Shown here piece by piece: positions 1-64,000 of a stretch of DNA of 64,000 bases. The notes beneath the pieces are model-generated. The model had not been told where the DNA came from. It worked only from the letters and a program-made list of their open reading frames with translations, and did no database searches. This DNA is from Bryopsis sp. KO-2023 (Eukaryota > Chlorophyta > Ulvophyceae > Bryopsidales > Bryopsidaceae), in assembly GCA_030272585.1 (NCBI GenBank), contig BSYQ01000005.1:5735501-5799500 (forward strand). Reading direction: 5' to 3'. Within the stretch, counting starts at the first letter, position 1. Each line of letters starts with the position of its first letter. The position numbers and the translations under genes were made by a program.

Positions 1-848
1 CTCGTGGGTGAGCGGCAGCAGAGCGAAAAAGCCTTGGGAGCATGTTCGTTTCTTTTTTGACGTGTGTGGCGACGGAACGCACAGGTGGTGGCGTGTTGGT
101 GGCGTTTCTGGGTTCAACCGCGCCCTTGTTGGATCATCCGATCGGGTGATCCGGGATCATCCACGGGATCTCTCTCGGGAGAAAATCGGGAGAGAGGTCG
201 AAGAAAAGAGCGAAAAAGCTAGAAAGGAAAAGAAAAGGGGGAGGGAAAGAAGGAAAATGAACTTTGAGAGAAAACACGATAGACAGACACCGGTTTGATT
301 TCGAAGGGGGAGAAAAAAACCTTTCGAAACGGCGAAAGAAGAATGCAAAGGAAATGGAATCTTCTCGAAAGGACCGAAAGAGAAAGAATCGAAAAAGGAA
401 AAAGGTAGAAAAGCACGGAAGAGGGAAGAAAAGAAAAGAAAGATTACTGGAAGAAAAGGAGGGAACGAACGGCACGAATATAAGAAAAGAACGACGAAAA
501 ACAGAAAGAAACGAATCGATCTCTTGCGGGGAAAGAAAAAAAAAAAACAAAAAAAACACACCACAACTCGAAGAGACACCAAAAACCCATGGAAAACGAA
601 GAACTCCTTTTACGCGATAATTCGAGATTACAAAATGGGCCATTGCCGATATCTCTCGTATATCCGAATCCGAGCACCCGGAAAAATCGCAACGATGAAA
701 AAACTCGAAACGAGTCCTACCCACGAACGAACACCCTCCCGAAGTTTTGGCGCAACCTCGTTCCCGCGCGCGACGGCACTTGTCCTCGACAACTTCCCGA
801 CAGCTTCCCGAACCTACCACGCTCTCCGCACGCGCGATCCCTCGAGCC
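1..848. other. Long spacer before tRNA-Gly(CCC), form A
   Basis: No gene seen. Bases 136-215 hold inverted repeats (GGATCA with TGATCC, and CTCTCTC with GAGAGAG). Bases 176-570 are strongly purine-rich on the + strand and end in an A-run of about 20 near 535-557. A small perfect hairpin (ACTCG, AAA, CGAGT) lies near 699-711. Long ORFs here are low-complexity Phe/Ser/Leu or Lys/Arg/Glu strings produced by the purine bias. The same spacer recurs in every unit. Confidence 0.8.
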
Positions 849-919
849 GTGTTGGTGATATAGTGGTAGCATACTACCCTCCCAAGGTAGAGACCCGGGT
901 TCGATTCCCGGTCAACGCA
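849..919 (+). tRNA. tRNA-Gly(CCC)
   Basis: 71 nt. Reads GGG codons. Full cloverleaf; anticodon CCC at 881-883 in loop CTCCCAA closed by CTACC/GGTAG; T arm CCGGG-TTCGATT-CCCGG; discriminator A. Position 2 is T here, giving a T2-G71 wobble in the acceptor stem, as in units 2 and 3; units 4 onward have C2-G71. Closely related to the tRNA-Gly(GCC) in the same unit, so probably a duplicate with a changed anticodon. Confidence 0.95.
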
Positions 920-928
920 CTCGTGCTC

Positions 929-936
929 TTTTTTTT
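929..936 (+). terminator. Pol III T8 terminator of tRNA-Gly(CCC)
   Basis: Eight T, 9 bp after the gene. Seven T in form B. Confidence 0.85.
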
Positions 937-995
937 AGCGGACCGACGTCCGAGACCCCAGCTTGAAGACGCGCGGCGGGCCCCTGCTTTCGTAC

Positions 996-1076
996 GTGGC
1001 GATGGCCGAGTTGGTCCAAGGCGCTGGAGTAAGGTTCCAGTCCGAAAGGGCGTGGGTTCAAATCCCACTCGCCACA
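996..1076 (+). tRNA. tRNA-Leu(AAG)
   Basis: 81 nt, class II. Anticodon AAG at 1031-1033; A34 is expected to become inosine in eukaryotes and read CTT and CTC. Acceptor GTGGCGA/TCGCCAC, short variable arm CC-GAAA-GG, A box TGGCCGAGTTGG, B box GGTTCAAATCC, discriminator A as expected for Leu. Very like plant tRNA-Leu(AAG). It faces tRNA-Met tail to tail with 48 bp between. No T4 run lies between them; a hairpin sits at its 3' end (1075-1095). Confidence 0.95.
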
Positions 1077-1112
1077 CGTCAGAATTTGTGACGTGGCGTG
1101 AGGCGTCCTGTC

Positions 1113-1116
1113 AAAA
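1113..1116 (-). terminator. Pol III T4 terminator of tRNA-Met
   Basis: AAAA on the + strand, 8 bp beyond the 3' end of the gene; kept in both forms. Confidence 0.75.
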
Positions 1117-1124
1117 GCGTTGGT

Positions 1125-1210
1125 TGCCCCGGACCAGGATCGAACTGGTGACCTCCGGATGGCTCACGAGGTTATGAGACCGACGCGCTAACCGACTGCG
1201 CCACCGAGGC
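1125..1210 (-). tRNA. tRNA-Met(CAT), elongator, with 12-nt intron
   Basis: 86 nt, 74 after splicing. Anticodon CAT (complement at 1174-1176). Between A37 and A38 there are 12 extra bases, 1161-1172, the usual place for a eukaryotic tRNA intron. Acceptor GCCTCGG/CCGGGGC, T loop TTCGATC and G1-C72 mark it as elongator, not initiator. The T31-T39 opposition in the anticodon stem also occurs in animal elongator tRNA-Met. Such an intron is general in plant nuclear elongator tRNA-Met genes and occurs in some other eukaryotes. Confidence 0.93.
1161..1172 (-). other. Intron of tRNA-Met(CAT)
   Basis: 12 nt between positions 37 and 38; a one-base shift is possible because an A flanks both sides. Same in all units (for example 15378-15389 in unit 6). 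Confidence 0.85.
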
Positions 1211-1320
1211 CACGGAAAAATTTCCGTGCCGCCGATCTCGGGCCGCTGCTGGGCGTCGTCTGCGACTCCCGTCCGGGGCGGGGCCGGCCCCCGTGGGGGT
1301 GGCTCCCGAGCGACGATCGT

Positions 1321-1403
1321 GTGGTGATGGCCGAGTTGGTCTAAGGCGCTAGATTCAGGTTCTAGTTCGGAGACGAGCGTGGGTTCGAATCCCACTCACC
1401 ACA
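1321..1403 (+). tRNA. tRNA-Leu(CAG)
   Basis: 83 nt, class II. Anticodon CAG at 1356-1358, reads CTG. Acceptor GTGGTGA/TCACCAC, variable arm TCG-GAGA-CGA, B box GGTTCGAATCC, discriminator A. Shares most of its body with tRNA-Leu(AAG), so an isoacceptor duplicate. The gene is identical in forms A and B. Confidence 0.95.
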
Positions 1404-1410
1404 ACGTGCC

Positions 1411-1414
1411 TTTT
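1411..1414 (+). terminator. Pol III T4 terminator of tRNA-Leu(CAG)
   Basis: TTTT, 7 bp after the gene; kept in both forms. Confidence 0.75.
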
Positions 1415-1459
1415 CGCGTCACCCCCTCGGTTCGCGAACACACACGCACACACATGCCT

Positions 1460-1541
1460 CGTTGAGGGCAGGATTCGAACCTGCGCGGGACAAACCCAGT
1501 GGATTTCTAGTCCACCTCCTTAACCACTCGGACACCCCAAC
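1460..1541 (-). tRNA. tRNA-Ser(AGA)
   Basis: 82 nt, class II. Anticodon AGA (complement at 1506-1508), A34 likely inosine, reading TCT/TCC. Acceptor GTTGGGG/CCTCAAC with one G-U, variable arm GGG-TTTGT-CCC, discriminator G as expected for Ser. No T4 run downstream before tRNA-Leu(CAG). Differs from tRNA-Ser(CGA) at about seven positions. Confidence 0.95.
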
Positions 1542-1646
1542 TCACGTCCTGACGAGGCGTCCCGTGGTCCATCCTCGTCACACGCCTCATCATCAACCTC
1601 CTCAGCCTCGTCATCTGCCTCGTCACGCCCTCGTCGTCGTGATCGG
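1542..1646. repeat. Degenerate CTCGTC-rich short repeat
   Basis: Between tRNA-Ser(AGA) and the tRNA-Asp relic, variants of GCCTCGTCA recur about eight times with spacing near 9-15 bp. Present in every unit with small changes. No gene seen. Confidence 0.6.
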
Positions 1647-1708
1647 GTCGTTGTGGTACAGTGGTGAGTATTGTTGCCTGTCACGCGGGAGATCAATTTG
1701 CAACGGCA
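1647..1708 (+). pseudogene. tRNA-Asp(GTC) relic without T arm, form A
   Basis: 62 nt against 72 for an intact gene. Acceptor strands GTCGTTG and CAACGGC, D arm, and anticodon loop CTGTCAC (GTC at 1680-1682) are plain tRNA-Asp. The T stem is gone: only 11 bases separate the anticodon stem from the acceptor strand, so the internal B box is lost. One end of the anticodon stem is G opposite G. Probably a dead gene carried along by the array; a short tRNA-like RNA cannot be ruled out. Confidence 0.8.
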
Positions 1709-1729
1709 CACCCACCCCGCATCCTTGTC

Positions 1730-1733
1730 TTTT
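1730..1733 (+). terminator. T4 run after the tRNA-Asp relic
   Basis: TTTT, 21 bp beyond the relic; kept in both forms. Confidence 0.5.
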
Positions 1734-1742
1734 GCCGCTCCG

Positions 1743-1747
1743 AAAAA
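1743..1747 (-). terminator. Pol III T5 terminator of tRNA-Ser(CGA)
   Basis: AAAAA on the + strand, 13 bp beyond the 3' end of the gene. Confidence 0.8.
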
Positions 1748-1760
1748 CGACTTCGACGCT

Positions 1761-1842
1761 CGTTGAGAGCAGGATTTGAACCTGCGCGGGATAAACCCAG
1801 TGGATTTCGAGTCCACCTCCTTAACCACTCGGACATCTCAGC
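1761..1842 (-). tRNA. tRNA-Ser(CGA)
   Basis: 82 nt, class II. Anticodon CGA (complement at 1807-1809), reads TCG. Variable arm GGG-TTTAT-CCC, T loop TTCAAAT, discriminator G. In units 1-3 the acceptor stem GCTGAGA/TCTCAAC has a C2-A71 mismatch; from unit 4 on base 71 is G and the pair is restored. Confidence 0.92.
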
Positions 1843-1948
1843 TCGACGACGTGTCGATCGCGTGTTGCGTGGAGGCTCGGTCGACCCCCCCCGATCGAGA
1901 TTCCCGGGATCGGGATCCACGAGATCGACGCGATCCTGTTCGAGATAT

Positions 1949-2022
1949 GCCCGGGTAGCTCAGTTTGGTAGAGCGCGAGACTTTTAATCTCGTGGCCGAG
2001 GGTTCGAGTCCCTCCTCGGGCG
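1949..2022 (+). tRNA. tRNA-Lys(TTT)
   Basis: 74 nt. Anticodon TTT at 1983-1985 in loop CTTTTAA, stem CGAGA/TCTCG. Acceptor GCCCGGG/CTCGGGC, T arm GAGGG-TTCGAGT-CCCTC, discriminator G. Reads AAA and probably AAG. No T4 run follows for about 240 bp, so termination must use a weaker signal or occur far downstream. Confidence 0.95.
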
Positions 2023-2281
2023 TCTGCCCTTCCGTTCCGACGAGAGATACGACCTTACGGGTCCGGGTACGGTGACCGTAATCGTAGTAAAAACTTGTTT
2101 GACCGTAAATTGCTTTACATGACGGTAAACAACTTTCGGTCACGGAACATAATCACGGCGACGGGTAACACGACGGTAACCGGACAGGAGCGGAGCCGGA
2201 CCAGAATCCTATCTCCGGTTCCGGCCCGATTCCCCCGCACGCATGTTACCCGACCGAGCAAGCTCGGGTGTTTTCGTCGAG

Positions 2282-2352
2282 GCGTTGATGGTACAGTGGT
2301 AGCATACTACCCTGCCACGGTAGAGACCCGGGTTCGATTCCCGGTCAACGCA
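2282..2352 (+). tRNA. tRNA-Gly(GCC)
   Basis: 71 nt. Anticodon GCC at 2314-2316, reads GGC/GGT. Acceptor GCGTTGA/TCAACGC is fully paired; T arm identical to tRNA-Gly(CCC). Faces the 5S gene tail to tail, 69 bp apart, each with its own T-run. Confidence 0.95.
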
Positions 2353-2361
2353 CTCAAGGCC

Positions 2362-2368
2362 TTTTTTT
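2362..2368 (+). terminator. Pol III T7 terminator of tRNA-Gly(GCC)
   Basis: Seven T, 9 bp after the gene; five T in form B. Confidence 0.85.
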
Positions 2369-2402
2369 CCCGGTCGTAGCACCAGAAAAAATACGAGCAC
2401 GG

Positions 2403-2412
2403 AAAAAGAAAA
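2403..2412 (-). terminator. Pol III terminator of 5S rRNA
   Basis: Read on the minus strand: TTTT, C, TTTTT, starting 9 bp beyond the last helix I base. Confidence 0.8.
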
Positions 2413-2421
2413 GTCCACCGA

Positions 2422-2537
2422 GTTGCCGCCGCCGGATTTCCTGAGACATCCCTGATCTCGGTACTGATCGGCCCCAACCGTGCTTGATTGGCGAGTTCGG
2501 AAGGGATCGCATGTATTCACGGTGGTTTGATGGCAAC
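2422..2537 (-). rRNA. 5S rRNA
   Basis: 116 nt between the paired ends of helix I (GTTGCC with GGCAAC). Helix II: CCGTG with CACGG. Helix III: GCGA with TCGC. Helix IV: CC-GAGA with TCTC-A-GG, with a bulged A. Helix V: GCCG with CGGC. The internal promoter region keeps AAGCA.GGTTGGG (box A) and GGGATG.CTCAGGAA (box C). Sequence is divergent from plant and animal 5S but the fold is complete. True ends may lie 1-4 bases further out, since typical 5S is 119-121 nt. Confidence 0.87.
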
Positions 2538-3662
2538 ACGTTTCGAAGCGGACGCCGGGAGGTGAAGTATCCGTTTTTCAGGTGCGCGAGGGACGTGTCC
2601 CTCCGATGGTTTGGTGCACCGATTGTTTTTTTGTTTGTTCTTTTGAGGTGAGGTTGGCAGAGCGGTGAAATGGTGTTTTTGGCTTCATCCAATCCAAAAG
2701 GACCCGGTGGGAGCGTTTTCAGGTGTGGCACGATCTTTCGTGGGTGGGTGGGTGGTTGAGTGTGCGCCTGTGAGCGCGTGCGCGCGCGCGGGCGGTGGAG
2801 TGTGTGTGGGTCAGCTCGTGGGTGAGCGGCAGCAGAGCGAAAAAGCCTTGGGAGCATGTTCGTTTCTTTTTTGACGTGTGTGGCGACGGAACGCACAGGT
2901 GGTGGCGTGTTGGTGGCGTTTCTGGGTTCAACCGCGCCCTTGTTGGATCATCCGATCGGGTGATCCGGGATCATCCACGGGATCTCTCTCGGGAGAAAAT
3001 CGGGAGAGAGGTCGAAGAAAAGAGCGAAAAAGCTAGAAAGGAAAAGAAAAGGGGGAGGGAAAGAAGGAAAATGAACTTTGAGAGAAAACACGATAGACAG
3101 ACACCGGTTTGATTTCGAAGGGGGAGAAAAAAACCTTTCGAAACGGCGAAAGAAGAATGCAAAGGAAATGGAATCTTCTCGAAAGGACCGAAAGAGAAAG
3201 AATCGAAAAAGGAAAAAGGTAGAAAAGCACGGAAGAGGGAAGAAAAGAAAAGAAAGATTACTGGAAGAAAAGGAGGGAACGAACGGCACGAATATAAGAA
3301 AAGAACGACGAAAAACAGAAAGAAACGAATCGATCTCTTGCGGGGAAAGAAAAAAAAAAAACAAAAAAAACACACCACAACTCGAAGAGACACCAAAAAC
3401 CCATGGAAAACGAAGAACTCCTTTTACGCGATAATTCGAGATTACAAAATGGGCCATTGCCGATATCTCTCGTATATCCGAATCCGAGCACCCGGAAAAA
3501 TCGCAACGATGAAAAAACTCGAAACGAGTCCTACCCACGAACGAACACCCTCCCGAAGTTTTGGCGCAACCTCGTTCCCGCGCGCGACGGCACTTGTCCT
3601 CGACAACTTCCCGACAGCTTCCCGAACCTACCACGCTCTCCGCACGCGCGATCCCTCGAGCC
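2538..3662. other. Long spacer between 5S and next tRNA-Gly(CCC), form A
   Basis: 1125 bp without a gene. In order: a near-palindrome GAGGGAC-GT-GTCCCTC about 50 bp upstream of the 5S start, a GT/GC-rich stretch at 2736-2830 with 17 bp of alternating purine-pyrimidine (2774-2790, Z-DNA-prone), then the purine-rich tract. The 5S promoter region must lie at its left end, since 5S is on the minus strand. Confidence 0.8.
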
Positions 3663-3733
3663 GTGTTGGTGATATAGTGGTAGCATACTACCCTCCCAAG
3701 GTAGAGACCCGGGTTCGATTCCCGGTCAACGCA
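3663..3733 (+). tRNA. tRNA-Gly(CCC)
   Basis: Unit 2, as unit 1 (T2-G71). Confidence 0.95.
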
Positions 3734-3809
3734 CTCGTGCTCTTTTTTTTAGCGGACCGACGTCCGAGACCCCAGCTTGAAGACGCGCGGCGGGCCCCTG
3801 CTTTCGTAC

Positions 3810-3890
3810 GTGGCGATGGCCGAGTTGGTCCAAGGCGCTGGAGTAAGGTTCCAGTCCGAAAGGGCGTGGGTTCAAATCCCACTCGCCACA
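3810..3890 (+). tRNA. tRNA-Leu(AAG)
   Basis: Unit 2, as unit 1. Confidence 0.95.
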
Positions 3891-3938
3891 CGTCAGAATT
3901 TGTGACGTGGCGTGAGGCGTCCTGTCAAAAGCGTTGGT

Positions 3939-4024
3939 TGCCCCGGACCAGGATCGAACTGGTGACCTCCGGATGGCTCACGAGGTTATGAGACCGACGC
4001 GCTAACCGACTGCGCCACCGAGGC
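3939..4024 (-). tRNA. tRNA-Met(CAT), intron-bearing
   Basis: Unit 2; intron 3975-3986. Confidence 0.93.
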
Positions 4025-4134
4025 CACGGAAAAATTTCCGTGCCGCCGATCTCGGGCCGCTGCTGGGCGTCGTCTGCGACTCCCGTCCGGGGCGGGGCCG
4101 GCCCCCGTGGGGGTGGCTCCCGAGCGACGATCGT

Positions 4135-4217
4135 GTGGTGATGGCCGAGTTGGTCTAAGGCGCTAGATTCAGGTTCTAGTTCGGAGACGAGCGTGGGTTC
4201 GAATCCCACTCACCACA
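4135..4217 (+). tRNA. tRNA-Leu(CAG)
   Basis: Unit 2, as unit 1. Confidence 0.95.
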
Positions 4218-4273
4218 ACGTGCCTTTTCGCGTCACCCCCTCGGTTCGCGAACACACACGCACACACATGCCT

Positions 4274-4355
4274 CGTTGAGGGCAGGATTCGAACCTGCGC
4301 GGGACAAACCCAGTGGATTTCTAGTCCACCTCCTTAACCACTCGGACACCCCAAC
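4274..4355 (-). tRNA. tRNA-Ser(AGA)
   Basis: Unit 2, as unit 1. Confidence 0.95.
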
Positions 4356-4460
4356 TCACGTCCTGACGAGGCGTCCCGTGGTCCATCCTCGTCACACGCC
4401 TCATCATCAACCTCCTCAGCCTCGTCATCTGCCTCGTCACGCCCTCGTCGTCGTGATCGG

Positions 4461-4522
4461 GTCGTTGTGGTACAGTGGTGAGTATTGTTGCCTGTCACGC
4501 GGGAGATCAATTTGCAACGGCA
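4461..4522 (+). pseudogene. tRNA-Asp(GTC) relic, form A
   Basis: Unit 2, as unit 1. Confidence 0.8.
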
Positions 4523-4574
4523 CACCCACCCCGCATCCTTGTCTTTTGCCGCTCCGAAAAACGACTTCGACGCT

Positions 4575-4656
4575 CGTTGAGAGCAGGATTTGAACCTGCG
4601 CGGGATAAACCCAGTGGATTTCGAGTCCACCTCCTTAACCACTCGGACATCTCAGC
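4575..4656 (-). tRNA. tRNA-Ser(CGA)
   Basis: Unit 2; C2-A71 mismatch as in unit 1. Confidence 0.92.
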
Positions 4657-4762
4657 TCGACGACGTGTCGATCGCGTGTTGCGTGGAGGCTCGGTCGACC
4701 CCCCCCGATCGAGATTCCCGGGATCGGGATCCACGAGATCGACGCGATCCTGTTCGAGATAT

Positions 4763-4836
4763 GCCCGGGTAGCTCAGTTTGGTAGAGCGCGAGACTTTTA
4801 ATCTCGTGGCCGAGGGTTCGAGTCCCTCCTCGGGCG
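4763..4836 (+). tRNA. tRNA-Lys(TTT)
   Basis: Unit 2, as unit 1. Confidence 0.95.
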
Positions 4837-5095
4837 TCTGCCCTTCCGTTCCGACGAGAGATACGACCTTACGGGTCCGGGTACGGTGACCGTAATCGTA
4901 GTAAAAACTTGTTTGACCGTAAATTGCTTTACATGACGGTAAACAACTTTCGGTCACGGAACATAATCACGGCGACGGGTAACACGACGGTAACCGGACA
5001 GGAGCGGAGCCGGACCAGAATCCTATCTCCGGTTCCGGCCCGATTCCCCCGCACGCATGTTACCCGACCGAGCAAGCTCGGGTGTTTTCGTCGAG

Positions 5096-5166
5096 GCGTT
5101 GATGGTACAGTGGTAGCATACTACCCTGCCACGGTAGAGACCCGGGTTCGATTCCCGGTCAACGCA
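5096..5166 (+). tRNA. tRNA-Gly(GCC)
   Basis: Unit 2, as unit 1. Confidence 0.95.
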
Positions 5167-5235
5167 CTCAAGGCCTTTTTTTCCCGGTCGTAGCACCAGA
5201 AAAAATACGAGCACGGAAAAAGAAAAGTCCACCGA

Positions 5236-5351
5236 GTTGCCGCCGCCGGATTTCCTGAGACATCCCTGATCTCGGTACTGATCGGCCCCAACCGTGCTTG
5301 ATTGGCGAGTTCGGAAGGGATCGCATGTATTCACGGTGGTTTGATGGCAAC
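5236..5351 (-). rRNA. 5S rRNA
   Basis: Unit 2, as unit 1. Confidence 0.87.
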
Positions 5352-6476
5352 ACGTTTCGAAGCGGACGCCGGGAGGTGAAGTATCCGTTTTTCAGGTGCG
5401 CGAGGGACGTGTCCCTCCGATGGTTTGGTGCACCGATTGTTTTTTTGTTTGTTCTTTTGAGGTGAGGTTGGCAGAGCGGTGAAATGGTGTTTTTGGCTTC
5501 ATCCAATCCAAAAGGACCCGGTGGGAGCGTTTTCAGGTGTGGCACGATCTTTCGTGGGTGGGTGGGTGGTTGAGTGTGCGCCTGTGAGCGCGTGCGCGCG
5601 CGCGGGCGGTGGAGTGTGTGTGGGTCAGCTCGTGGGTGAGCGGCAGCAGAGCGAAAAAGCCTTGGGAGCATGTTCGTTTCTTTTTTGACGTGTGTGGCGA
5701 CGGAACGCACAGGTGGTGGCGTGTTGGTGGCGTTTCTGGGTTCAACCGCGCCCTTGTTGGATCATCCGATCGGGTGATCCGGGATCATCCACGGGATCTC
5801 TCTCGGGAGAAAATCGGGAGAGAGGTCGAAGAAAAGAGCGAAAAAGCTAGAAAGGAAAAGAAAAGGGGGAGGGAAAGAAGGAAAATGAACTTTGAGAGAA
5901 AACACGATAGACAGACACCGGTTTGATTTCGAAGGGGGAGAAAAAAACCTTTCGAAACGGCGAAAGAAGAATGCAAAGGAAATGGAATCTTCTCGAAAGG
6001 ACCGAAAGAGAAAGAATCGAAAAAGGAAAAAGGTAGAAAAGCACGGAAGAGGGAAGAAAAGAAAAGAAAGATTACTGGAAGAAAAGGAGGGAACGAACGG
6101 CACGAATATAAGAAAAGAACGACGAAAAACAGAAAGAAACGAATCGATCTCTTGCGGGGAAAGAAAAAAAAAAAACAAAAAAAACACACCACAACTCGAA
6201 GAGACACCAAAAACCCATGGAAAACGAAGAACTCCTTTTACGCGATAATTCGAGATTACAAAATGGGCCATTGCCGATATCTCTCGTATATCCGAATCCG
6301 AGCACCCGGAAAAATCGCAACGATGAAAAAACTCGAAACGAGTCCTACCCACGAACGAACACCCTCCCGAAGTTTTGGCGCAACCTCGTTCCCGCGCGCG
6401 ACGGCACTTGTCCTCGACAACTTCCCGACAGCTTCCCGAACCTACCACGCTCTCCGCACGCGCGATCCCTCGAGCC

Positions 6477-6547
6477 GTGTTGGTGATATAGTGGTAGCAT
6501 ACTACCCTCCCAAGGTAGAGACCCGGGTTCGATTCCCGGTCAACGCA
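6477..6547 (+). tRNA. tRNA-Gly(CCC)
   Basis: Unit 3, as unit 1 (T2-G71). Confidence 0.95.
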
Positions 6548-6623
6548 CTCGTGCTCTTTTTTTTAGCGGACCGACGTCCGAGACCCCAGCTTGAAGACGC
6601 GCGGCGGGCCCCTGCTTTCGTAC

Positions 6624-6704
6624 GTGGCGATGGCCGAGTTGGTCCAAGGCGCTGGAGTAAGGTTCCAGTCCGAAAGGGCGTGGGTTCAAATCCCACTCGC
6701 CACA
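6624..6704 (+). tRNA. tRNA-Leu(AAG)
   Basis: Unit 3, as unit 1. Confidence 0.95.
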
Positions 6705-6752
6705 CGTCAGAATTTGTGACGTGGCGTGAGGCGTCCTGTCAAAAGCGTTGGT

Positions 6753-6838
6753 TGCCCCGGACCAGGATCGAACTGGTGACCTCCGGATGGCTCACGAGGT
6801 TATGAGACCGACGCGCTAACCGACTGCGCCACCGAGGC
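6753..6838 (-). tRNA. tRNA-Met(CAT), intron-bearing
   Basis: Unit 3; intron 6789-6800. Confidence 0.93.
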
Positions 6839-6948
6839 CACGGAAAAATTTCCGTGCCGCCGATCTCGGGCCGCTGCTGGGCGTCGTCTGCGACTCCCGT
6901 CCGGGGCGGGGCCGGCCCCCGTGGGGGTGGCTCCCGAGCGACGATCGT

Positions 6949-7031
6949 GTGGTGATGGCCGAGTTGGTCTAAGGCGCTAGATTCAGGTTCTAGTTCGGAG
7001 ACGAGCGTGGGTTCGAATCCCACTCACCACA
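6949..7031 (+). tRNA. tRNA-Leu(CAG)
   Basis: Unit 3, as unit 1. Confidence 0.95.
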
Positions 7032-7087
7032 ACGTGCCTTTTCGCGTCACCCCCTCGGTTCGCGAACACACACGCACACACATGCCT

Positions 7088-7169
7088 CGTTGAGGGCAGG
7101 ATTCGAACCTGCGCGGGACAAACCCAGTGGATTTCTAGTCCACCTCCTTAACCACTCGGACACCCCAAC
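7088..7169 (-). tRNA. tRNA-Ser(AGA)
   Basis: Unit 3, as unit 1. Confidence 0.95.
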
Positions 7170-7274
7170 TCACGTCCTGACGAGGCGTCCCGTGGTCCAT
7201 CCTCGTCACACGCCTCATCATCAACCTCCTCAGCCTCGTCATCTGCCTCGTCACGCCCTCGTCGTCGTGATCGG

Positions 7275-7336
7275 GTCGTTGTGGTACAGTGGTGAGTATT
7301 GTTGCCTGTCACGCGGGAGATCAATTTGCAACGGCA
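7275..7336 (+). pseudogene. tRNA-Asp(GTC) relic, form A
   Basis: Unit 3, as unit 1. Confidence 0.8.
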
Positions 7337-7388
7337 CACCCACCCCGCATCCTTGTCTTTTGCCGCTCCGAAAAACGACTTCGACGCT

Positions 7389-7470
7389 CGTTGAGAGCAG
7401 GATTTGAACCTGCGCGGGATAAACCCAGTGGATTTCGAGTCCACCTCCTTAACCACTCGGACATCTCAGC
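7389..7470 (-). tRNA. tRNA-Ser(CGA)
   Basis: Unit 3; C2-A71 mismatch as in unit 1. Confidence 0.92.
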
Positions 7471-7576
7471 TCGACGACGTGTCGATCGCGTGTTGCGTGG
7501 AGGCTCGGTCGACCCCCCCCGATCGAGATTCCCGGGATCGGGATCCACGAGATCGACGCGATCCTGTTCGAGATAT

Positions 7577-7650
7577 GCCCGGGTAGCTCAGTTTGGTAGA
7601 GCGCGAGACTTTTAATCTCGTGGCCGAGGGTTCGAGTCCCTCCTCGGGCG
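7577..7650 (+). tRNA. tRNA-Lys(TTT)
   Basis: Unit 3, as unit 1. Confidence 0.95.
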
Positions 7651-7909
7651 TCTGCCCTTCCGTTCCGACGAGAGATACGACCTTACGGGTCCGGGTACGG
7701 TGACCGTAATCGTAGTAAAAACTTGTTTGACCGTAAATTGCTTTACATGACGGTAAACAACTTTCGGTCACGGAACATAATCACGGCGACGGGTAACACG
7801 ACGGTAACCGGACAGGAGCGGAGCCGGACCAGAATCCTATCTCCGGTTCCGGCCCGATTCCCCCGCACGCATGTTACCCGACCGAGCAAGCTCGGGTGTT
7901 TTCGTCGAG

Positions 7910-7980
7910 GCGTTGATGGTACAGTGGTAGCATACTACCCTGCCACGGTAGAGACCCGGGTTCGATTCCCGGTCAACGCA
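7910..7980 (+). tRNA. tRNA-Gly(GCC)
   Basis: Unit 3, as unit 1. Confidence 0.95.
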
Positions 7981-8049
7981 CTCAAGGCCTTTTTTTCCCG
8001 GTCGTAGCACCAGAAAAAATACGAGCACGGAAAAAGAAAAGTCCACCGA

Positions 8050-8165
8050 GTTGCCGCCGCCGGATTTCCTGAGACATCCCTGATCTCGGTACTGATCGGC
8101 CCCAACCGTGCTTGATTGGCGAGTTCGGAAGGGATCGCATGTATTCACGGTGGTTTGATGGCAAC
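8050..8165 (-). rRNA. 5S rRNA
   Basis: Unit 3, as unit 1. Confidence 0.87.
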
Positions 8166-9290
8166 ACGTTTCGAAGCGGACGCCGGGAGGTGAAGTATCC
8201 GTTTTTCAGGTGCGCGAGGGACGTGTCCCTCCGATGGTTTGGTGCACCGATTGTTTTTTTGTTTGTTCTTTTGAGGTGAGGTTGGCAGAGCGGTGAAATG
8301 GTGTTTTTGGCTTCATCCAATCCAAAAGGACCCGGTGGGAGCGTTTTCAGGTGTGGCACGATCTTTCGTGGGTGGGTGGGTGGTTGAGTGTGCGCCTGTG
8401 AGCGCGTGCGCGCGCGCGGGCGGTGGAGTGTGTGTGGGTCAGCTCGTGGGTGAGCGGCAGCAGAGCGAAAAAGCCTTGGGAGCATGTTCGTTTCTTTTTT
8501 GACGTGTGTGGCGACGGAACGCACAGGTGGTGGCGTGTTGGTGGCGTTTCTGGGTTCAACCGCGCCCTTGTTGGATCATCCGATCGGGTGATCCGGGATC
8601 ATCCACGGGATCTCTCTCGGGAGAAAATCGGGAGAGAGGTCGAAGAAAAGAGCGAAAAAGCTAGAAAGGAAAAGAAAAGGGGGAGGGAAAGAAGGAAAAT
8701 GAACTTTGAGAGAAAACACGATAGACAGACACCGGTTTGATTTCGAAGGGGGAGAAAAAAACCTTTCGAAACGGCGAAAGAAGAATGCAAAGGAAATGGA
8801 ATCTTCTCGAAAGGACCGAAAGAGAAAGAATCGAAAAAGGAAAAAGGTAGAAAAGCACGGAAGAGGGAAGAAAAGAAAAGAAAGATTACTGGAAGAAAAG
8901 GAGGGAACGAACGGCACGAATATAAGAAAAGAACGACGAAAAACAGAAAGAAACGAATCGATCTCTTGCGGGGAAAGAAAAAAAAAAAACAAAAAAAACA
9001 CACCACAACTCGAAGAGACACCAAAAACCCATGGAAAACGAAGAACTCCTTTTACGCGATAATTCGAGATTACAAAATGGGCCATTGCCGATATCTCTCG
9101 TATATCCGAATCCGAGCACCCGGAAAAATCGCAACGATGAAAAAACTCGAAACGAGTCCTACCCACGAACGAACACCCTCCCGAAGTTTTGGCGCAACCT
9201 CGTTCCCGCGCGCGACGGCACTTGTCCTCGACAACTTCCCGACAGCTTCCCGAACCTACCACGCTCTCCGCACGCGCGATCCCTCGAGCC

Positions 9291-10284: not shown

Positions 10285-10390
10285 TCGACGACGTGTCGAT
10301 CGCGCGTTGCGTGGAGGCTCGGTCGACCCCCCCCGATCGAGATTCCCGGGATCGGGATCCACGAGATCGACGCGATCCTGTTCGAGATAT

Positions 10391-10464
10391 GCCCGGGTAG
10401 CTCAGTTTGGTAGAGCGCGAGACTTTTAATCTCGTGGCCGAGGGTTCGAGTCCCTCCTCGGGCG
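10391..10464 (+). tRNA. tRNA-Lys(TTT)
   Basis: Unit 4, as unit 1. Confidence 0.95.
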
Positions 10465-10723
10465 TCTGCCCTTCCGTTCCGACGAGAGATACGACCTTAC
10501 GGGTCCGGGTACGGTGACCGTAATCGTAGTAAAAACTTGTTTGACCGTAAATTGCTTTACATGACGGTAAACAACTTTCGGTCACGGAACATAATCACGG
10601 CGACGGGTAACACGACGGTAACCGGACAGGAGCGGAGCCGGACCAGAATCCTATCTCCGGTTCCGGCCCGATTCCCCCGCACGCATGTTACCCGACCGAG
10701 CAAGCTCGGGTGTTTTCGTCGAG

Positions 10724-10794
10724 GCGTTGATGGTACAGTGGTAGCATACTACCCTGCCACGGTAGAGACCCGGGTTCGATTCCCGGTCAACGCA
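10724..10794 (+). tRNA. tRNA-Gly(GCC)
   Basis: Unit 4, as unit 1. Confidence 0.95.
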
Positions 10795-10863
10795 CTCAAG
10801 GCCTTTTTTTCCCGGTCGTAGCACCAGAAAAAATACGAGCACGGAAAAAGAAAAGTCCACCGA

Positions 10864-10979
10864 GTTGCCGCCGCCGGATTTCCTGAGACATCCCAGATCT
10901 CGGTACTGATCGGCCCCAACCGTGCTTGATTGGCGAGTTCGGAAGGGATCGCATGTATTCACGGTGGTTTGATGGCAAC
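10864..10979 (-). rRNA. 5S rRNA, variant
   Basis: Unit 4. One private change, A at 10895 on the + strand (T elsewhere), falling in the loop closed by helix IV. Confidence 0.86.
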
Positions 10980-12104
10980 ACGTTTCGAAGCGGACGCCGG
11001 GAGGTGAAGTATCCGTTTTTCAGGTGCGCGAGGGACGTGTCCCTCCGATGGTTTGGTGCACCGATTGTTTTTTTGTTTGTTCTTTTGAGGTGAGGTTGGC
11101 AGAGCGGTGAAATGGTGTTTTTGGCTTCATCCAATCCAAAAGGACCCGGTGGGAGCGTTTTCAGGTGTGGCACGATCTTTCGTGGGTGGGTGGGTGGTTG
11201 AGTGTGCGCCTGTGAGCGCGTGCGCGCGCGCGGGCGGTGGAGTGTGTGTGGGTCAGCTCGTGGGTGAGCGGCAGCAGAGCGAAAAAGCCTTGGGAGCATG
11301 TTCGTTTCTTTTTTGACGTGTGTGGCGACGGAACGCACAGGTGGTGGCGTGTTGGTGGCGTTTCTGGGTTCAACCGCGCCCTTGTTGGATCATCCGATCG
11401 GGTGATCCGGGATCATCCACGGGATCTCTCTCGGGAGAAAATCGGGAGAGAGGTCGAAGAAAAGAGCGAAAAAGCTAGAAAGGAAAAGAAAAGGGGGAGG
11501 GAAAGAAGGAAAATGAACTTTGAGAGAAAACACGATAGACAGAAACCGGTTTGATTTCGAAGGGGGAGAAAAAAACCTTTCGAAACGGCGAAAGAAGAAT
11601 GCAAAGGAAATGGAATCTTCTCGAAAGGACCGAAAGAGAAAGAATCGAAAAAGGAAAAAGGTAGAAAAGCACGGAAGAGGGAAGAAAAGAAAAGAAAGAT
11701 TACTGGAAGAAAAGGAGGGAACGAACGGCACGAATATAAGAAAAGAACGACGAAAAACAGAAAGAAACGAATCGATCTCTTGCGGGGAAAGAAAAAAAAA
11801 AAAAAAAAAAACCACACCACAACTCGAAGAGACACCAAAAACCCATGGAAAACGAAGAACTCCTTTTACGCGATAATTCGAGATTACAAAATGGGCCATT
11901 GCCGATATCTCTCGTATATCCGAATCCGAGCACCCGGAAAAATCGCAACGATGAAAAAACTCGAAACGAGTCCTACCCACGAACGAACACCCTCCCGAAG
12001 TTTTGGCGCAACCTCGTTCCCGCGCGCGACGGCACTTGTCCTCGACAACTTCCCGACAGCTTCCCGAACCTACCACGCTCTCCGCACGCGCGATCCCTCG
12101 AGCC

Positions 12105-12175
12105 GCGTTGGTGATATAGTGGTAGCATATTACCCTCCCAAGGTAGAGACCCGGGTTCGATTCCCGGTCAACGCA
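12105..12175 (+). tRNA. tRNA-Gly(CCC), variant
   Basis: Unit 5. Private T at 12130 turns the first anticodon-stem pair C27-G43 into a T-G wobble. Otherwise as unit 4. Confidence 0.94.
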
Positions 12176-12251
12176 CTCGTGCTCTTTTTTTTAGCGGACC
12201 GACGTCCGAGACCCCAGCTTGAAGACGCGAGGCGGGCCCCTGCTTTCGTAC

Positions 12252-12332
12252 GTGGCGATGGCCGAGTTGGTCCAAGGCGCTGGAGTAAGGTTCCAGTCCG
12301 AAAGGGCGTGGGTTCAAATCCCACTCGCCACA
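12252..12332 (+). tRNA. tRNA-Leu(AAG)
   Basis: Unit 5, as unit 1. Confidence 0.95.
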
Positions 12333-12380
12333 CGTCAGAATTTGTGACGTGGCGTGAGGCGTCCTGTCAAAAGCGTTGGT

Positions 12381-12466
12381 TGCCCCGGACCAGGATCGAA
12401 CTGGTGACCTCCGGATGGCTCACGAGGTTATGAGACCGACGCGCTAACCGACTGCGCCACCGAGGC
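12381..12466 (-). tRNA. tRNA-Met(CAT), intron-bearing
   Basis: Unit 5; intron 12417-12428. Confidence 0.93.
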
Positions 12467-12576
12467 CACGGAAAAATTTCCGTGCCGCCGATCTCGGGCC
12501 GCTGCTGGGCGTCGTCTGCGACTCCCGTCCGGGGCGGGGCCGGCCCTCGTGGGGGTGGCTCCCGAGCGACGATCGT

Positions 12577-12659
12577 GTGGTGATGGCCGAGTTGGTCTAA
12601 GGCGCTAGATTCAGGTTCTAGTTCGGAGACGAGCGTGGGTTCGAATCCCACTCACCACA
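12577..12659 (+). tRNA. tRNA-Leu(CAG)
   Basis: Unit 5. Lies inside the interval where the unit switches from form A to form B. Confidence 0.95.
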
Positions 12660-12729
12660 ACGTGCCTTTTCGCGTCACCCCCTCGGTTTGCGAACACACA
12701 CGCACACACATGCCTCCGAGGCATTGCCT

Positions 12730-12811
12730 CGTTGAGGGCAGGATTCGAACCTGCGCGGGACAAACCCAGTGGATTTCTAGTCCACCTCCTTAACCACTCG
12801 GACACCCCAAC
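12730..12811 (-). tRNA. tRNA-Ser(AGA)
   Basis: Unit 5. Gene body as unit 1; first copy with the 14-bp palindrome-making insertion at its 3' flank. Confidence 0.95.
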
Positions 12812-12916
12812 TCACGTTGTGATGAGGCGTCCCGTGGTCCATCCTCGTCACACGCCTCGTCATCAACCTCATCAGCCTCGTCGTCCGCCTCGTCACGCCC
12901 TCGTCGTCGTGACCGG

Positions 12917-12976
12917 GTCGTTGTAGTACAGAGGTGAGTATTCTTGCCTGTCACGCGGGTTCAATTTGCAACGGCA
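12917..12976 (+). pseudogene. tRNA-Asp(GTC) relic, form B
   Basis: Unit 5. 60 nt; anticodon GTC. The anticodon stem pairs fully (CTTGC with GCGGG, two wobbles), better than form A, but only TTCAATTTG separates it from the acceptor strand. Confidence 0.8.
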
Positions 12977-28075: not shown

Positions 28076-28100
28076 TCTGCCCTCCCGTTCCGACGAGAGA

Positions 28101-62298: not shown

Positions 62299-62369
62299 GC
62301 GTTGGTGATATAGTGGTAGCATACTACCCTCCCAAGGTAGAGACCCGGGTTCGATTCCCGGTCAACGCA
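62299..62369 (+). tRNA. tRNA-Gly(CCC)
   Basis: Unit 22, as unit 6. Confidence 0.95.
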
Positions 62370-62444
62370 CCCGTGCTCTTTTTTTCGCGGACCGACCTCC
62401 GAGACCCCAGCTTGAGGACGCGGGGCGGGCCCCTCCTCTCGTAC

Positions 62445-62525
62445 GTGGCGATGGCCGAGTTGGTCCAAGGCGCTGGAGTAAGGTTCCAGTCCGAAAGGGC
62501 GTGGGTTCAAATCCCACTCGCCACA
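62445..62525 (+). tRNA. tRNA-Leu(AAG)
   Basis: Unit 22, as unit 6. Confidence 0.95.
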
Positions 62526-62573
62526 CGTCATAATTTGTGACGTGGCGTGAGGCTTCCAGTCAAAAGCGTTGGT

Positions 62574-62659
62574 TGCCCCGGACCAGGATCGAACTGGTGA
62601 CCTCCGGATGGCTCACGAGGTTATGAGACCGACGCGCTAACCGACTGCGCCACCGAGGC
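62574..62659 (-). tRNA. tRNA-Met(CAT), intron-bearing
   Basis: Unit 22; intron 62610-62621. Confidence 0.93.
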
Positions 62660-62765
62660 CACGGGAAGATTTCGGTGCCGCCGATCTCGGACCGCTGCTC
62701 GGCGCCGTCTGCGACTCCCGTCCGGGGCGGGGCCCTCGTGGGGGTGGCTCCCGAGCGGCGATCGT

Positions 62766-62848
62766 GTGGTGATGGCCGAGTTGGTCTAAGGCGCTAGATT
62801 CAGGTTCTAGTTCGGAGACGAGCGTGGGTTCGAATCCCACTCACCACA
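62766..62848 (+). tRNA. tRNA-Leu(CAG)
   Basis: Unit 22, as unit 6. Confidence 0.95.
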
Positions 62849-62918
62849 ACGTGCCTTTTCGCGTCACCCCCTCGGTTTGCGAACACACACGCACACACAT
62901 GCCTCCGAGGCATTGCCT

Positions 62919-63000
62919 CGTTGAGGGCAGGATTCGAACCTGCGCGGGACAAACCCAGTGGATTTCTAGTCCACCTCCTTAACCACTCGGACACCCCAAC
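62919..63000 (-). tRNA. tRNA-Ser(AGA)
   Basis: Unit 22, as unit 6. Confidence 0.95.
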
Positions 63001-63105
63001 TCACGTTGTGATGAGGCGTCCCGTGGTCCATCCTCGTCACACGCCTCGTCATCAACCTCATCAGCCTCGTCGTCCGCCTCGTCACGCCCTCGTCGTCGTG
63101 ACCGG

Positions 63106-63165
63106 GTCGTTGTAGTACAGAGGTGAGTATTCTTGCCTGTCACGCGGGTTCAATTTGCAACGGCA
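63106..63165 (+). pseudogene. tRNA-Asp(GTC) relic, form B
   Basis: Unit 22, as unit 5. Confidence 0.8.
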
Positions 63166-63217
63166 CACCCACCCCGCATCCTTGTCTTTTGCCGCTCCGA
63201 AAAACGACTTCGACGCT

Positions 63218-63299
63218 CGCTGAGAGCAGGATTTGAACCTGCGCGGGATAAACCCAGTGGATTTCGAGTCCACCTCCTTAACCACTCGGACATCTCAGC
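63218..63299 (-). tRNA. tRNA-Ser(CGA)
   Basis: Unit 22, as unit 5. Confidence 0.95.
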
Positions 63300-63405
63300 T
63301 CGACGACGTGTCGATCGCGCGTTGCGTGGAGGCTCGGTCGACCCCCCGCGATCGAGATTCCCGGGATCGGGATCCACGAGATCGGCGCGATCCTGTTTGA
63401 GACAT

Positions 63406-63479
63406 GCCCGGGTAGCTCAGTTTGGTAGAGCGCGAGACTTTTAATCTCGTGGCCGAGGGTTCGAGTCCCTCCTCGGGCG
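63406..63479 (+). tRNA. tRNA-Lys(TTT)
   Basis: Unit 22, as unit 6. Confidence 0.95.
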
Positions 63480-63945
63480 TCTGCCCTCCCGTTCCGACGA
63501 GAGACAGGTGTTAGATTTGGGGGTGCGAGTCTAAGAAGAGCTAAAAACTAAAACTTCCGAGTCCTTGACCTTGAAGCCCATTAATACCATGACCCCCAAG
63601 GATCCTAGCGTCCCCGCATGGTACCTAGGACAACCATCCTAGGTGGGCACCCGACATAGGTCTAGTCATCATGACTAGACTTGACTCACATGTCCACGTC
63701 AACATGACTGTACATGACTGTACATGACTGTACATGACTGAACCCGACTGGATGTAGCTCTTAACATCCCTAACAACAGGACCTTACGGGTCCGGGTACG
63801 GTGACCGACCGTAACCGTATTAAAAACTTGTCCGACCGTAAATTACCGTACATGACGGTAAACAACTTTCGGTCACGGAACACAATTACGGCCGCATTAC
63901 GCCGACGGGTAACACGACCGAGCAAGCTCGGGTGTTTTCGTCGAG

Positions 63946-64000
63946 GCGTTGATGGTACAGTGGTAGCATACTACCCTGCCACGGTAGAGACCCGGGTTCG
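63946..64000 (+). tRNA. tRNA-Gly(GCC), cut by window end
   Basis: Unit 22. First 55 of 71 nt; the window stops in the T arm. Confidence 0.93.

Follow-up and report, generated by a model that had tools for sequence, protein, structure and literature searches.

A Tandem Array of Mixed tRNA and 5S rRNA Genes, Probably Functional, Is One of Several Array Families in Bryopsis

Overall Organization of the Array

The 64,000-bp stretch analyzed here (positions 1–64,000; the window) belongs to a tandem array on contig C5 that probably functions as a bulk template for RNA polymerase III (Pol III). With at least three further array families, it carries many of the nuclear tRNA genes of Bryopsis. The plus-strand array, part of a family termed F1, comprises 45 units in ~166 kb (C5:~5,728,500–5,894,600, both limits located by 5S genes), 22 of them in the window. 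As an earlier note on this DNA had stated, it runs past both window edges. All copy counts are those of the genome assembly.

Each of the 22 near-identical units (~2.81–2.96 kb) contains eight tRNA genes, a broken tRNA-Asp gene and a 5S rRNA gene. The cassette described in the earlier note was borne out, the eight tRNA genes keeping a constant order and strand through 22 repeats in 64 kb (175 by ARAGORN, one Gly-GCC short at the right edge). Rfam places at least 21 5S genes in the window, all on the minus strand, with 73–77 bits against a cut-off of 38 (150 of 197 matches listed). The window contains exactly 22 copies of the 77-nt tRNA-Lys, and the 21 complete intervals between them measure 2,814–2,957 bp.

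A complete unit of subtype A, running from one tRNA-Gly(CCC) to the next (849–3662, plus strand, 2,814 bp), illustrates the layout. Its plus strand carries tRNA-Gly(CCC) (849–920; T8 run 8 nt downstream), tRNA-Leu(AAG) (996–1077; first T4 run 333 nt downstream), tRNA-Leu(CAG) (1320–1405; T4 5 nt downstream), the tRNA-Asp relic (1650–1722), tRNA-Lys(TTT) (1948–2024; first T4 run 246 nt downstream), which served as the unit anchor, and tRNA-Gly(GCC) (2282–2353; T7 8 nt downstream). On the minus strand lie elongator tRNA-Met(CAT) (1125–1210), tRNA-Ser(AGA) (1460–1541; first T4+ run 239 nt downstream), tRNA-Ser(CGA) (1761–1842; T5 13 nt downstream) and the 5S gene (2420–2538; 76.9 bits by Rfam; T4 and T5 runs just downstream). 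ARAGORN and Rfam both underlie the assignments of the intact tRNA genes except that of tRNA-Met, which ARAGORN printed as “cata” in bacterial mode; its 12-nt intron (1161–1172, minus strand, gene position 39) also occurs in the same gene elsewhere. The ~1.1-kb spacer between the 5S gene and the next tRNA-Gly(CCC) (2539–3662) is in parts homologous to spacers of two other families, F2 and F4, as compared via a subtype B unit.

The earlier claim that nothing else lies between these genes holds for the one unit scanned with Rfam, where only the eight tRNAs (51.6–72.4 bits against a family cut-off of 29) and 5S score above the threshold of a family. A further eight matches, with E-values from 0.0004 to 0.93, stay below threshold and overlap tRNA genes. 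The tRNA-Asp relic is genuine: compared with the intact homologue of other arrays, it lacks part of the T arm and has an altered B box, and neither ARAGORN in the window nor Rfam, run permissively on one unit, called it. A run of at least four T begins within 13 nt downstream in six of the nine genes of the unit, whereas the 230 nt downstream of Leu-AAG, Ser-AGA and Lys contain no such run. The Lys-TTT gene of F1 also has an unusual D loop, an array-specific allele. Pol III would transcribe each array gene separately, from its internal promoter.

The 21 complete units of the window are not uniform. Units 1–3 are of subtype A and unit 4 is an A/B recombinant at the junction (10,390–13,215, plus strand, 2,826 bp), 23–27 substitutions from A and 88–91 from B. 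Units 5–21 are 17 consecutive subtype B units (13,216–63,404, plus strand), 0–6 substitutions apart with one 10-bp indel; their two lengths, 2,947 and 2,957 bp, differ because a 10-bp repeat in the Lys/Gly-GCC interval is present in 3.9 or 4.9 copies. Such low-copy short repeats are few in F1 spacers, and examination of tandem repeats in the window revealed no complex repeats between all genes of the units.

Near-identical repeats assemble poorly, and C5 itself ends within another array, without a telomere; a short true cluster inflated to a long array by the assembly is nevertheless very improbable. Indeed, the units are ordered and distinguishable, the plus-strand array containing six units with an A-type relic, one recombinant, B-types and insert-bearing units. 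The DNA flanking it on the left includes a reading frame for a WD40 protein, units at its right edge are incomplete, and its sister array has variants of its own.

Flanks and Sister Array

The sister array is an inverted F1 array with 55 Lys-TTT copies that starts ~0.1 Mb from the plus-strand array, across a gap of ~103 kb. Inverted pairs about 103–110 kb apart are found in both F1 and F4, as might be expected of a chromosome-structure element, i.e., pericentromeric or boundary arrays with TFIIIC bound, as in Schizosaccharomyces octosporus and S. cryophilus. Fission yeast centromeres are flanked by tRNA/5S clusters (PMC6538654, in the part available). Several observations make such a role improbable for the Bryopsis arrays. 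Single contig C5 carries arrays at three far-apart places (F2, F1 and a third family, F3). The gap is known from two sampled stretches, and both resemble ordinary gene DNA: 5.9 kb adjoining the inverted array contain a CAF-1B-like reading frame, and 2.5 kb at 5.944 Mb contain no tandem repeat by TRF. Furthermore, conservation spans whole tRNA gene bodies while spacers and 5′ flanks drift, and the Asp relic could lose its B box. The structural or boundary block that the earlier note had proposed through TFIIIC binding thus found no positive support.

Other Array Families and Genome-Wide Distribution

The arrays very probably lie in nuclear DNA of Bryopsis; the host has a plastid and plant-type telomeres. 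Bryopsis is a coenocytic, giant-celled green alga (seaweed). At least three families exist besides F1: F2, with a 12-tRNA unit; F3, with ~11.5-kb units of 27 tRNAs plus 5S; and F4 on contig C16 (Glu/Gly/5S), whose unit is small, with 2 tRNAs plus 5S, next to 8, 12 and 27 tRNAs per unit in the others. Taken together, the families contain 40 tRNA species; six expected anticodons (Gln-TTG, Leu-TAA, Leu-TAG, Ser-TGA, Val-TAC and Arg-CCG) did not turn up in the stretches read. The array families jointly carry many, perhaps most, nuclear tRNA genes of the host.

Genome-wide counts, which cover Trp, Gly-CCC, Lys and Glu, show a strong concentration in arrays. Each of the 23 tRNA-Trp matches (44-mer, up to 3 mismatches) maps to a position in an F3 array, on C5, C9 or C10. 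All 93 exact Gly-CCC 33-mer matches lie within the plus-strand F1 array and its inverted sister, and the window-type Lys-TTT, searched as a 31-mer with up to 2 mismatches, is likewise confined to these two arrays in all of its 100 copies. Overall, 123 of 125 Lys matches are in arrays; two further Lys-TTT genes are each solitary in the surrounding 3.1 kb. Exact Glu matches number 108; of the 100 listed, 97 fall in F2, F3 or C16 arrays and 3 elsewhere.

The suggestion that the array is the main source of its RNAs therefore holds for Gly-CCC and the window-type Lys-TTT, both confined to F1 arrays. F2, which has about 43 units, also carries Met, Leu-AAG, Leu-CAG, Ser-AGA and Ser-CGA. For 5S the suggestion fails, and F1 is not its chief source: further 5S genes occur in units of F3, in those of the C16 family (by BLAST with the window 5S) and in a 193-bp 5S-only tandem on C13.

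The array could instead be a mostly silent or stage-specific reservoir, with few genes used and most copies in closed chromatin, read at particular life stages. Precedents are the Arabidopsis Ser-Tyr-Tyr (SYY) cluster, described as tandem, heterochromatic and silent in most tissues (PMC12308677), and the oocyte-specific tandem tRNA arrays of Xenopus, described as switched on in the embryo (PMC11500080), both as given in the available parts of these papers. The independence of copy number from codon use (Spearman 0.05, n = 38, in a small codon sample) fits as well. We regard this reading as unlikely. The observed/expected CpG ratio is 1.23 in the window, compared with 0.60–0.89 in six of seven nuclear non-array stretches and 1.0 in the seventh, and so gives no sign of decay through long-term methylation. 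Moreover, since no Trp or Gly-CCC match was found outside arrays, some of the array copies, at the least, have to be in use.

Sequence Constraint, Homogenization and Shared Descent

Subtypes A and B differ at 3 of 758 positions in genes, 101 of 1,828 in spacers and 5 of 71 in the Asp relic (Fisher: genes vs. spacer, p = 2e-12; relic vs. spacer, p = 0.59). Between the window array and the inverted array, the corresponding values are 7/758, 115/1,932 and 16/71. Gene-body divergence is thus 6 to 14 times below that of spacers, while divergence in the relic equals or exceeds that of spacer, which argues that the genes are selected as tRNAs, plausibly for tRNA supply. Constraint in a homogenized array could also stem from conversion off few active copies rather than from activity of all.

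Homogenization is evident in the 21 window units, which represent 14 distinct sequences, some identical units being non-adjacent and one unit recombinant. In one array unit, a retroelement has identical LTRs; the next unit has the same two junctions, a third insert is of equal size, and the spacing of these inserts is exactly 10,242 bp throughout. Unequal exchange and conversion would keep the copies alike, with selection acting on gene bodies and drift on spacer sequence and exact copy number.

Spacers of F1, F2 and F4 share descent, being common to the three families at 73–85% identity, and F1 and F2 have the gene order Met-LeuCAG-SerAGA-Asp-SerCGA in common. Within F1, the shared spacer block differs by 3–4%, vs. 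5–6% for the other far spacer; no RNA structure signal was detected in it. The three families probably derive from one ancestral repeat and differ through gene gain and loss.

As copy number shows no relation to codon use, demand does not appear to set it. This result also suits a largely neutral amplification, in which the genes are functional and array size and gene combination result from unequal exchange, clustering bringing no benefit. Gene decay within the array (the Asp relic) and a Leu-AAG cut by a transposon in the two left-most units point the same way. Purely neutral processes would, however, make it a striking coincidence that arrays have retained several sets of genes and that Trp and Gly-CCC matches are found in arrays only. 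We consider neutral amplification a serious possibility, somewhat short of an even chance; it is compatible with a functional array and differs only on what, if anything, clustering is for.

Implications

Near-total arrangement of tRNA genes in arrays has been described as an organization unique to the genus Entamoeba (PMC2652664, in the text available). We lean toward a second, independent origin of such a genome in Bryopsis, with 40 tRNA species in a handful of families, most isoacceptors without dispersed backup, and cassettes that diversified from a common repeat as genes were gained and lost. If true, a further instance so remote from Entamoeba, and with much larger cassettes, would make it possible to ask what drives the arrangement, the candidates being tRNA supply to a giant multinucleate cell, easy concerted evolution and drift. 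Because the array families differ in small diagnostic ways, transcribed copies should be readable by tRNA sequencing. The arrays also offer a natural test of tRNA gene number against codon use, which did not match in the small codon sample used here.

Comparison with Known Systems

The Xenopus laevis 3.18-kb tDNA repeat, which reportedly has eight tRNA genes per ~3.2-kb tandem unit and no 5S, would be the closest to F1 in size and gene number, but its gene set differs. In the data on green-lineage tandem tRNA groups, “Cpu” presumably denotes Ceratodon. Such groups include the Arabidopsis SYY and Pro clusters, “Cpu” and Chlamydomonas, and a 50-species survey gives ten clusters, in which two to five isotypes are repeated (PMC12308677, PMC12652284). 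They are tandem groups as in Bryopsis, but the available parts of these sources mention no 5S, whereas F1 has eight tRNAs plus 5S.

To our knowledge, CTCF is not expected in algae. The human tRNA VNTR at 1q23.3 has a conserved CTCF site, with five tRNAs per 7.3-kb unit on both strands and 9–43 units per allele, and over 500 tRNA genes lie outside it (PMC4041453). It resembles F1 as a large homogeneous tandem of mixed tRNA genes on both strands, but contains five tRNAs where F1 has eight plus 5S, no 5S being reported in the available text. S. octosporus and S. cryophilus have centromeric tRNA clusters and 5S-bearing repeats (PMC6538654, in part). Inverted repeats and nearby retroelement traces add to this likeness. 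Repeats of that type border a central core poor in genes, one such region per chromosome, whereas Bryopsis has several arrays on one contig and gene-like DNA in the gap samples.

The nearest kind of organization is that of Entamoeba, whose head-to-tail units combine different tRNA genes and, in some cases, 5S. Bryopsis matches this, down to a 5S-only tandem. Almost all tRNA genes of E. histolytica lie in a set of different arrays, and E. invadens also has a 5S-only array; units contain 1–5 tRNAs in E. histolytica, and the largest, in E. invadens, has 6 plus 5S in 2,364 bp (PMC2652664, in the part available). Bryopsis units are larger, with 8 plus 5S, 12, or 27 plus 5S. Furthermore, short tandem repeats between genes, confined to E. 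histolytica and E. dispar in that account (PMC2652664), form complex repeats between all genes there, whereas Bryopsis spacers have few, low-copy ones. The Bryopsis arrays may work like Entamoeba-type arrays, by analogy and without membership being claimed; given a host with plastid and plant-type telomeres, an unrelated lineage, the likeness is probably convergent. The earlier note did not recognize the cassette, which is right for this gene set and not for its kind, as mixed tRNA arrays are known in the available accounts (PMC2652664, PMC4041453). The Bryopsis array is therefore a new, extreme form of them.

Organization of the F1 array

The window, at C5:5,735,501–5,799,500, consists of eukaryotic nuclear DNA, since its tRNA-Met genes and the tRNA-Tyr genes of another array contain short introns and CCCTAAA telomere repeats are present at the start of contig C1. 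The genome assembly comprises 28 contigs (91,088,769 bases). A cox3 match is located on contig C27 (356,152 bp), and contig C28 (91,672 bp) contains reading frames that we take to be plastid Rps7, Rps12, Ycf4, and ChlI. Within the window, 175 tRNA genes were called by ARAGORN and 21 5S genes by Rfam, and 22 exact tRNA-Lys genes are spaced 2,814–2,957 bp apart, which bears out the earlier note's proposal of a tRNA/5S cassette in 22-fold tandem. The unit of this family (F1) has the order Gly-CCC(+), Leu-AAG(+), Met with a 12-nt intron(−), Leu-CAG(+), Ser-AGA(−), a tRNA-Asp relic(+), Ser-CGA(−), Lys-TTT(+), Gly-GCC(+), and 5S(−).

With 5S genes as markers, the plus-strand array ends at approximately C5:5,728,500 and 5,894,600, so that it does run past both window edges, as had been claimed; the near end of the minus-strand array is at 5,997,900. 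The window is part of an array of ~166 kb, and the inverted sister of that array spans 189 kb or more. The window-type Lys-TTT gene occurs 100 times in the genome (≤2 mismatches), with 45 copies in the plus array (C5:5,731,358–5,892,738, + strand) and 55 in the sister array (C5:5,998,475–6,186,372, − strand). Exact Gly-CCC genes number 44 and 49 in the plus and minus arrays, respectively, and 0 elsewhere in the genome. Array copy numbers are to be read as assembled.

The 21 complete window units, which comprise 14 distinct sequences, are divided into three of subtype A, one A/B recombinant, and seventeen of subtype B. The relic sequence of subtype A is found at six places (≤3 mismatches), two to the left of the window and four inside it. 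Subtype B units are 0–6 substitutions apart, plus one 10-bp indel. A 10-bp tandem repeat of 3.9 or 4.9 copies lies between tRNA-Lys and tRNA-Gly(GCC) in subtype B (e.g., window 13513–13561), and one copy more or less of this repeat explains why subtype B units come in two lengths.

Homogenization and mobile elements

Identical window units are adjacent in some cases and non-adjacent in others (unit 9 equals 20, and 17 equals 21); identity between units that are not neighbors is a mark of block exchange. A retroelement further along the plus array, at ~1064–8343 of stretch L060 (C5:5,819,501–5,829,500), indicates that exchange is recent. It matches reverse transcriptase, RNase H, integrase, and a chromodomain, is classed as Ty3/gypsy type, and lies ~0.2 kb upstream of a 5S gene. 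Its two LTRs, of 244 bp each, are identical, and it carries a single frame of 1,751 aa. The following unit is broken at the same two junctions, a third (stretch L061) carries an insert of the same size, and each of these three consecutive units gives a spacing of exactly 10,242 bp. Thus, a young insertion has already been copied along with its unit. In the two left-most F1 units, Leu-AAG is interrupted by another element (4469–4931 and 7756–8218 of stretch L051, i.e., C5:~5,729,969 and ~5,733,256). This is a ~463-bp transposon that has terminal inverted repeats and a tRNA-like B box and is flanked by a 10-bp duplication of its target.

Conservation, termination, and codon use

Between subtypes A and B, differences were found at 3/758 positions in gene bodies, 101/1,828 in spacers, and 5/71 in the Asp relic (455 spacer gap columns excluded). 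Comparison with the inverted array, for which the unit was joined from two neighboring pieces of stretch L067, gave 7/758, 115/1,932, and 16/71, respectively (68 spacer, 6 Met gene, and 8 relic gap columns excluded). Genes differ from spacer with p = 2e-12 (A vs. B) and 4e-10 (inverted array), and the relic from spacer with p = 0.59 (Fisher). The 40 nt upstream of the genes drift as other spacer does. The Pol III promoters of tRNA genes (type 2) and 5S genes (type 1) are internal. Conserved gene bodies beside a drifting upstream region indicate that selection sees the tRNA and 5S gene bodies themselves, whereas under TFIIIC binding alone the acceptor stems, anticodons, and intron would be expected to drift.

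Runs of four or more T start ≤13 nt downstream of 6/9 genes. For Leu-AAG, Ser-AGA, and Lys, no T4 run was found within 230 nt downstream, which counts against simple independent transcription of these three genes, unless weaker stops are used.

Codon use was sampled from 13 stop-free kinase exons picked by hand from 146 listed matches (3,182 codons, a small and non-random sample). In these exons, Gly is most often encoded by GGG and Leu by CTG, which fits F1. A general match of tRNA dosage to codon use was rejected (rho 0.05, p = 0.76 over 38 isoacceptors); the copy numbers entered were 93, 43, 23, and 32 for the four families, assuming complete units and leaving eight Glu matches out of the 32.

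Other array families

At least three further array families are present. F2 forms three clusters on C5 (2.78–3.77 Mb), with 43 copies (counted by Glu-TTC) of a unit with Asp, Ser-CGA, Glu-TTC, Leu-AAG, Ile-TAT, Thr-TGT, Pro-CGG, Thr-CGT, Arg-TCT, Met, Leu-CAG, and Ser-AGA. F3 occupies the end of C5 (C5:6,911,926–7,048,199) in units of ~11.0–11.5 kb, and the contig ends within this array, without a telomere. One 11.5 kb unit read whole (stretches L062 and L065) contains 27 tRNA genes and a 5S gene; its Tyr gene, which appears as Leu in one gene listing, was taken as Tyr. The ~11.0 kb version, parts of which are in eight loci (L011–L018), lacks one of the Val genes in the part read (a 26-tRNA variant). 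Further F3 units probably lie on C9, near its end (C9:5,578,667–5,675,026), and on C10 (C10:5,077,178–5,132,588), as indicated by Trp, Lys-CTT, Glu-CTC, and 5S pattern matches at like spacing. F4 lies at C16:1,097,850–1,367,887, perhaps further (stretch L068), as a ~2.2 kb unit of Glu-CTC, Gly-TCC, and 5S, with four 5S genes (by BLAST) in the one unit read. Its Glu gene is at no fewer than 32 places on C16, in a minus and a plus group ~110 kb apart.

F1 and F2 have Met-LeuCAG-SerAGA-Asp-SerCGA in common, in the same order and on the same strands, with spacer stretches 82–85% alike; of these two families, F2 retains an intact Asp gene, whereas that of F1 is broken. F1, F2, and F4 also have a spacer block in common, located upstream of their first plus-strand gene and 73–85% alike (window 3400–3599; equivalents in stretches L045 and L068). 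The idea that this block hides an RNA gene or acts as a promoter was rejected: no RNA structure signal was detected (z +0.8 and −0.5 against simple column shuffles of four sequences), a 1-nt indel between subtypes A and B puts its open frame out of register, and the 40 nt upstream of the genes drift.

Share of tRNA and 5S genes held in arrays

Forty tRNA species (38 isoacceptors and two Met types) are represented in the families seen, and array tRNA genes are estimated at ~1,900 in total if every unit is complete. Chlamydomonas and Volvox have 336 and 1,051 tDNAs, respectively, according to a 2010 survey (PMC2888827). The genome-wide counts cover Trp, Lys, Glu, and Gly-CCC. Every one of the 23 Trp matches falls at an F3 position (11 on C5, 9 on C9, and 3 on C10). 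Of the 125 Lys matches, F1 accounts for 100 (Lys-TTT) and F3 positions for 23 (Lys-CTT), and the other two are Lys-TTT genes that stand alone. For Glu, the 108 exact matches are distributed over F2 (43), F3 positions (22), C16 (32), single places (2), and the vicinity of the C13 5S array (1), with 8 lacking a listed position. Gln-TTG, Leu-TAA, Leu-TAG, Ser-TGA, Val-TAC, and Arg-CCG were not seen in the stretches read. Scattered high-scoring tRNA-Ile(TAT) genes lie outside the described families at C12:868,828–878,753 and 1,347,632–1,501,504 (stretches L023 and L025–L030).

A tRNA gene count by B-box motif (4,537 matches vs. 768 in the reversed control) was dropped as unspecific, because the motif also occurs in dispersed inverted pairs, the tRNA-free start of C1, and the transposon that cuts Leu-AAG. 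The first 100 matches listed, all on C1, include such pairs ~207 bp apart, and the first 10 kb of C1 has ten matches and 0 tRNAs by ARAGORN. Dense B-box-like motifs near the telomere, mostly on the minus strand (C1:4,642–8,278, stretch L063), are perhaps tRNA-derived repeats.

Three 5S sequence classes coexist, namely those of the F1 cassette, F3, and C13. At C13:73,035–108,540, a 193-bp 5S-only tandem was present in 5/5 stretches scanned (L002, L004, L006, L007, and L010). A 5S gene similar in sequence to the F3 class, with the top score among 47 listed, is located at C7:4,864,432–4,864,550 and is the sole 5S called in the surrounding 3.1 kb stretch (L001). In terms of gene copies, the suggestion that the cassette is the main source of its RNAs holds for Gly-CCC (93/93 in F1) but not for 5S, for which the C13 tandem is richer by gene density and F3, F4, and C7 contribute genes too.

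Chromatin setting

The CpG observed/expected ratio is 1.23 in the window, 1.03–1.23 in five other array stretches (L002, L045, L049, L062, and L068), and 1.21 in L065, vs. 0.60–0.89 in 6/7 nuclear non-array stretches; the seventh of these, L026, has 1.0, and L082 has 0.61. The high array CpG argues against long-standing cytosine methylation, although biased gene conversion could also have raised it. F1 and F4 both form inverted array pairs ~103–110 kb apart, which recalls the centromeres of two fission yeasts (PMC6538654) and weakly suggests boundary or centromere elements. However, arrays are located at three distant places on C5, a CAF-1B-like frame lies within the 5.9 kb adjoining the inverted F1 array, and no tandem repeat was found in 2.5 kb from the gap between the F1 arrays. 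One frame from this gap stretch gave 0 Pfam matches. A boundary or centromere role is rated as unlikely.

Comparison with known tRNA arrays

Mixed tRNA arrays are present in Entamoeba, human, plants, and Xenopus; the kind of array is thus already known. The 3.18 kb tandem unit of Xenopus laevis, with eight tRNA genes, is close to F1 in size and gene number. The E. histolytica arrays contain spacer repeats somewhat like the 10-bp repeat of subtype B. In E. histolytica, 25 types of array are described, with ≤5 tRNAs each and some with 5S, and E. invadens has a 6-tRNA + 5S unit as well as a 5S-only array (PMC2652664). Human 1q23.3 contains units of 7.3 kb with 5 tRNAs (PMC4041453), and a 50-species plant survey (PMC12652284) reports ten clusters, in each of which two to five isotypes are repeated. 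The 2010 survey (PMC2888827) concludes that large tDNA clusters have originated many times independently.

Among the titles and abstract openings listed by the literature searches, none named a tRNA array for Bryopsis or any other ulvophyte, although the genome paper of Bryopsis (doi 10.1111/tpj.16764) may describe one. The word 'tRNA' is absent from the main text of the Caulerpa genome paper. The earlier note had called the cassette unfamiliar, which is apt for its gene set but not for its kind, given the Entamoeba and human arrays. The cassette size, the 5S genes within eight-gene and 27-gene units, and the array-held share of tRNA genes appear new for the green lineage within the titles and abstract openings covered, with the same reservation about the Bryopsis genome paper. 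Collectively, the F1 array is real and, as judged from conservation, functional; set beside these systems, it is known in kind and extreme in degree.
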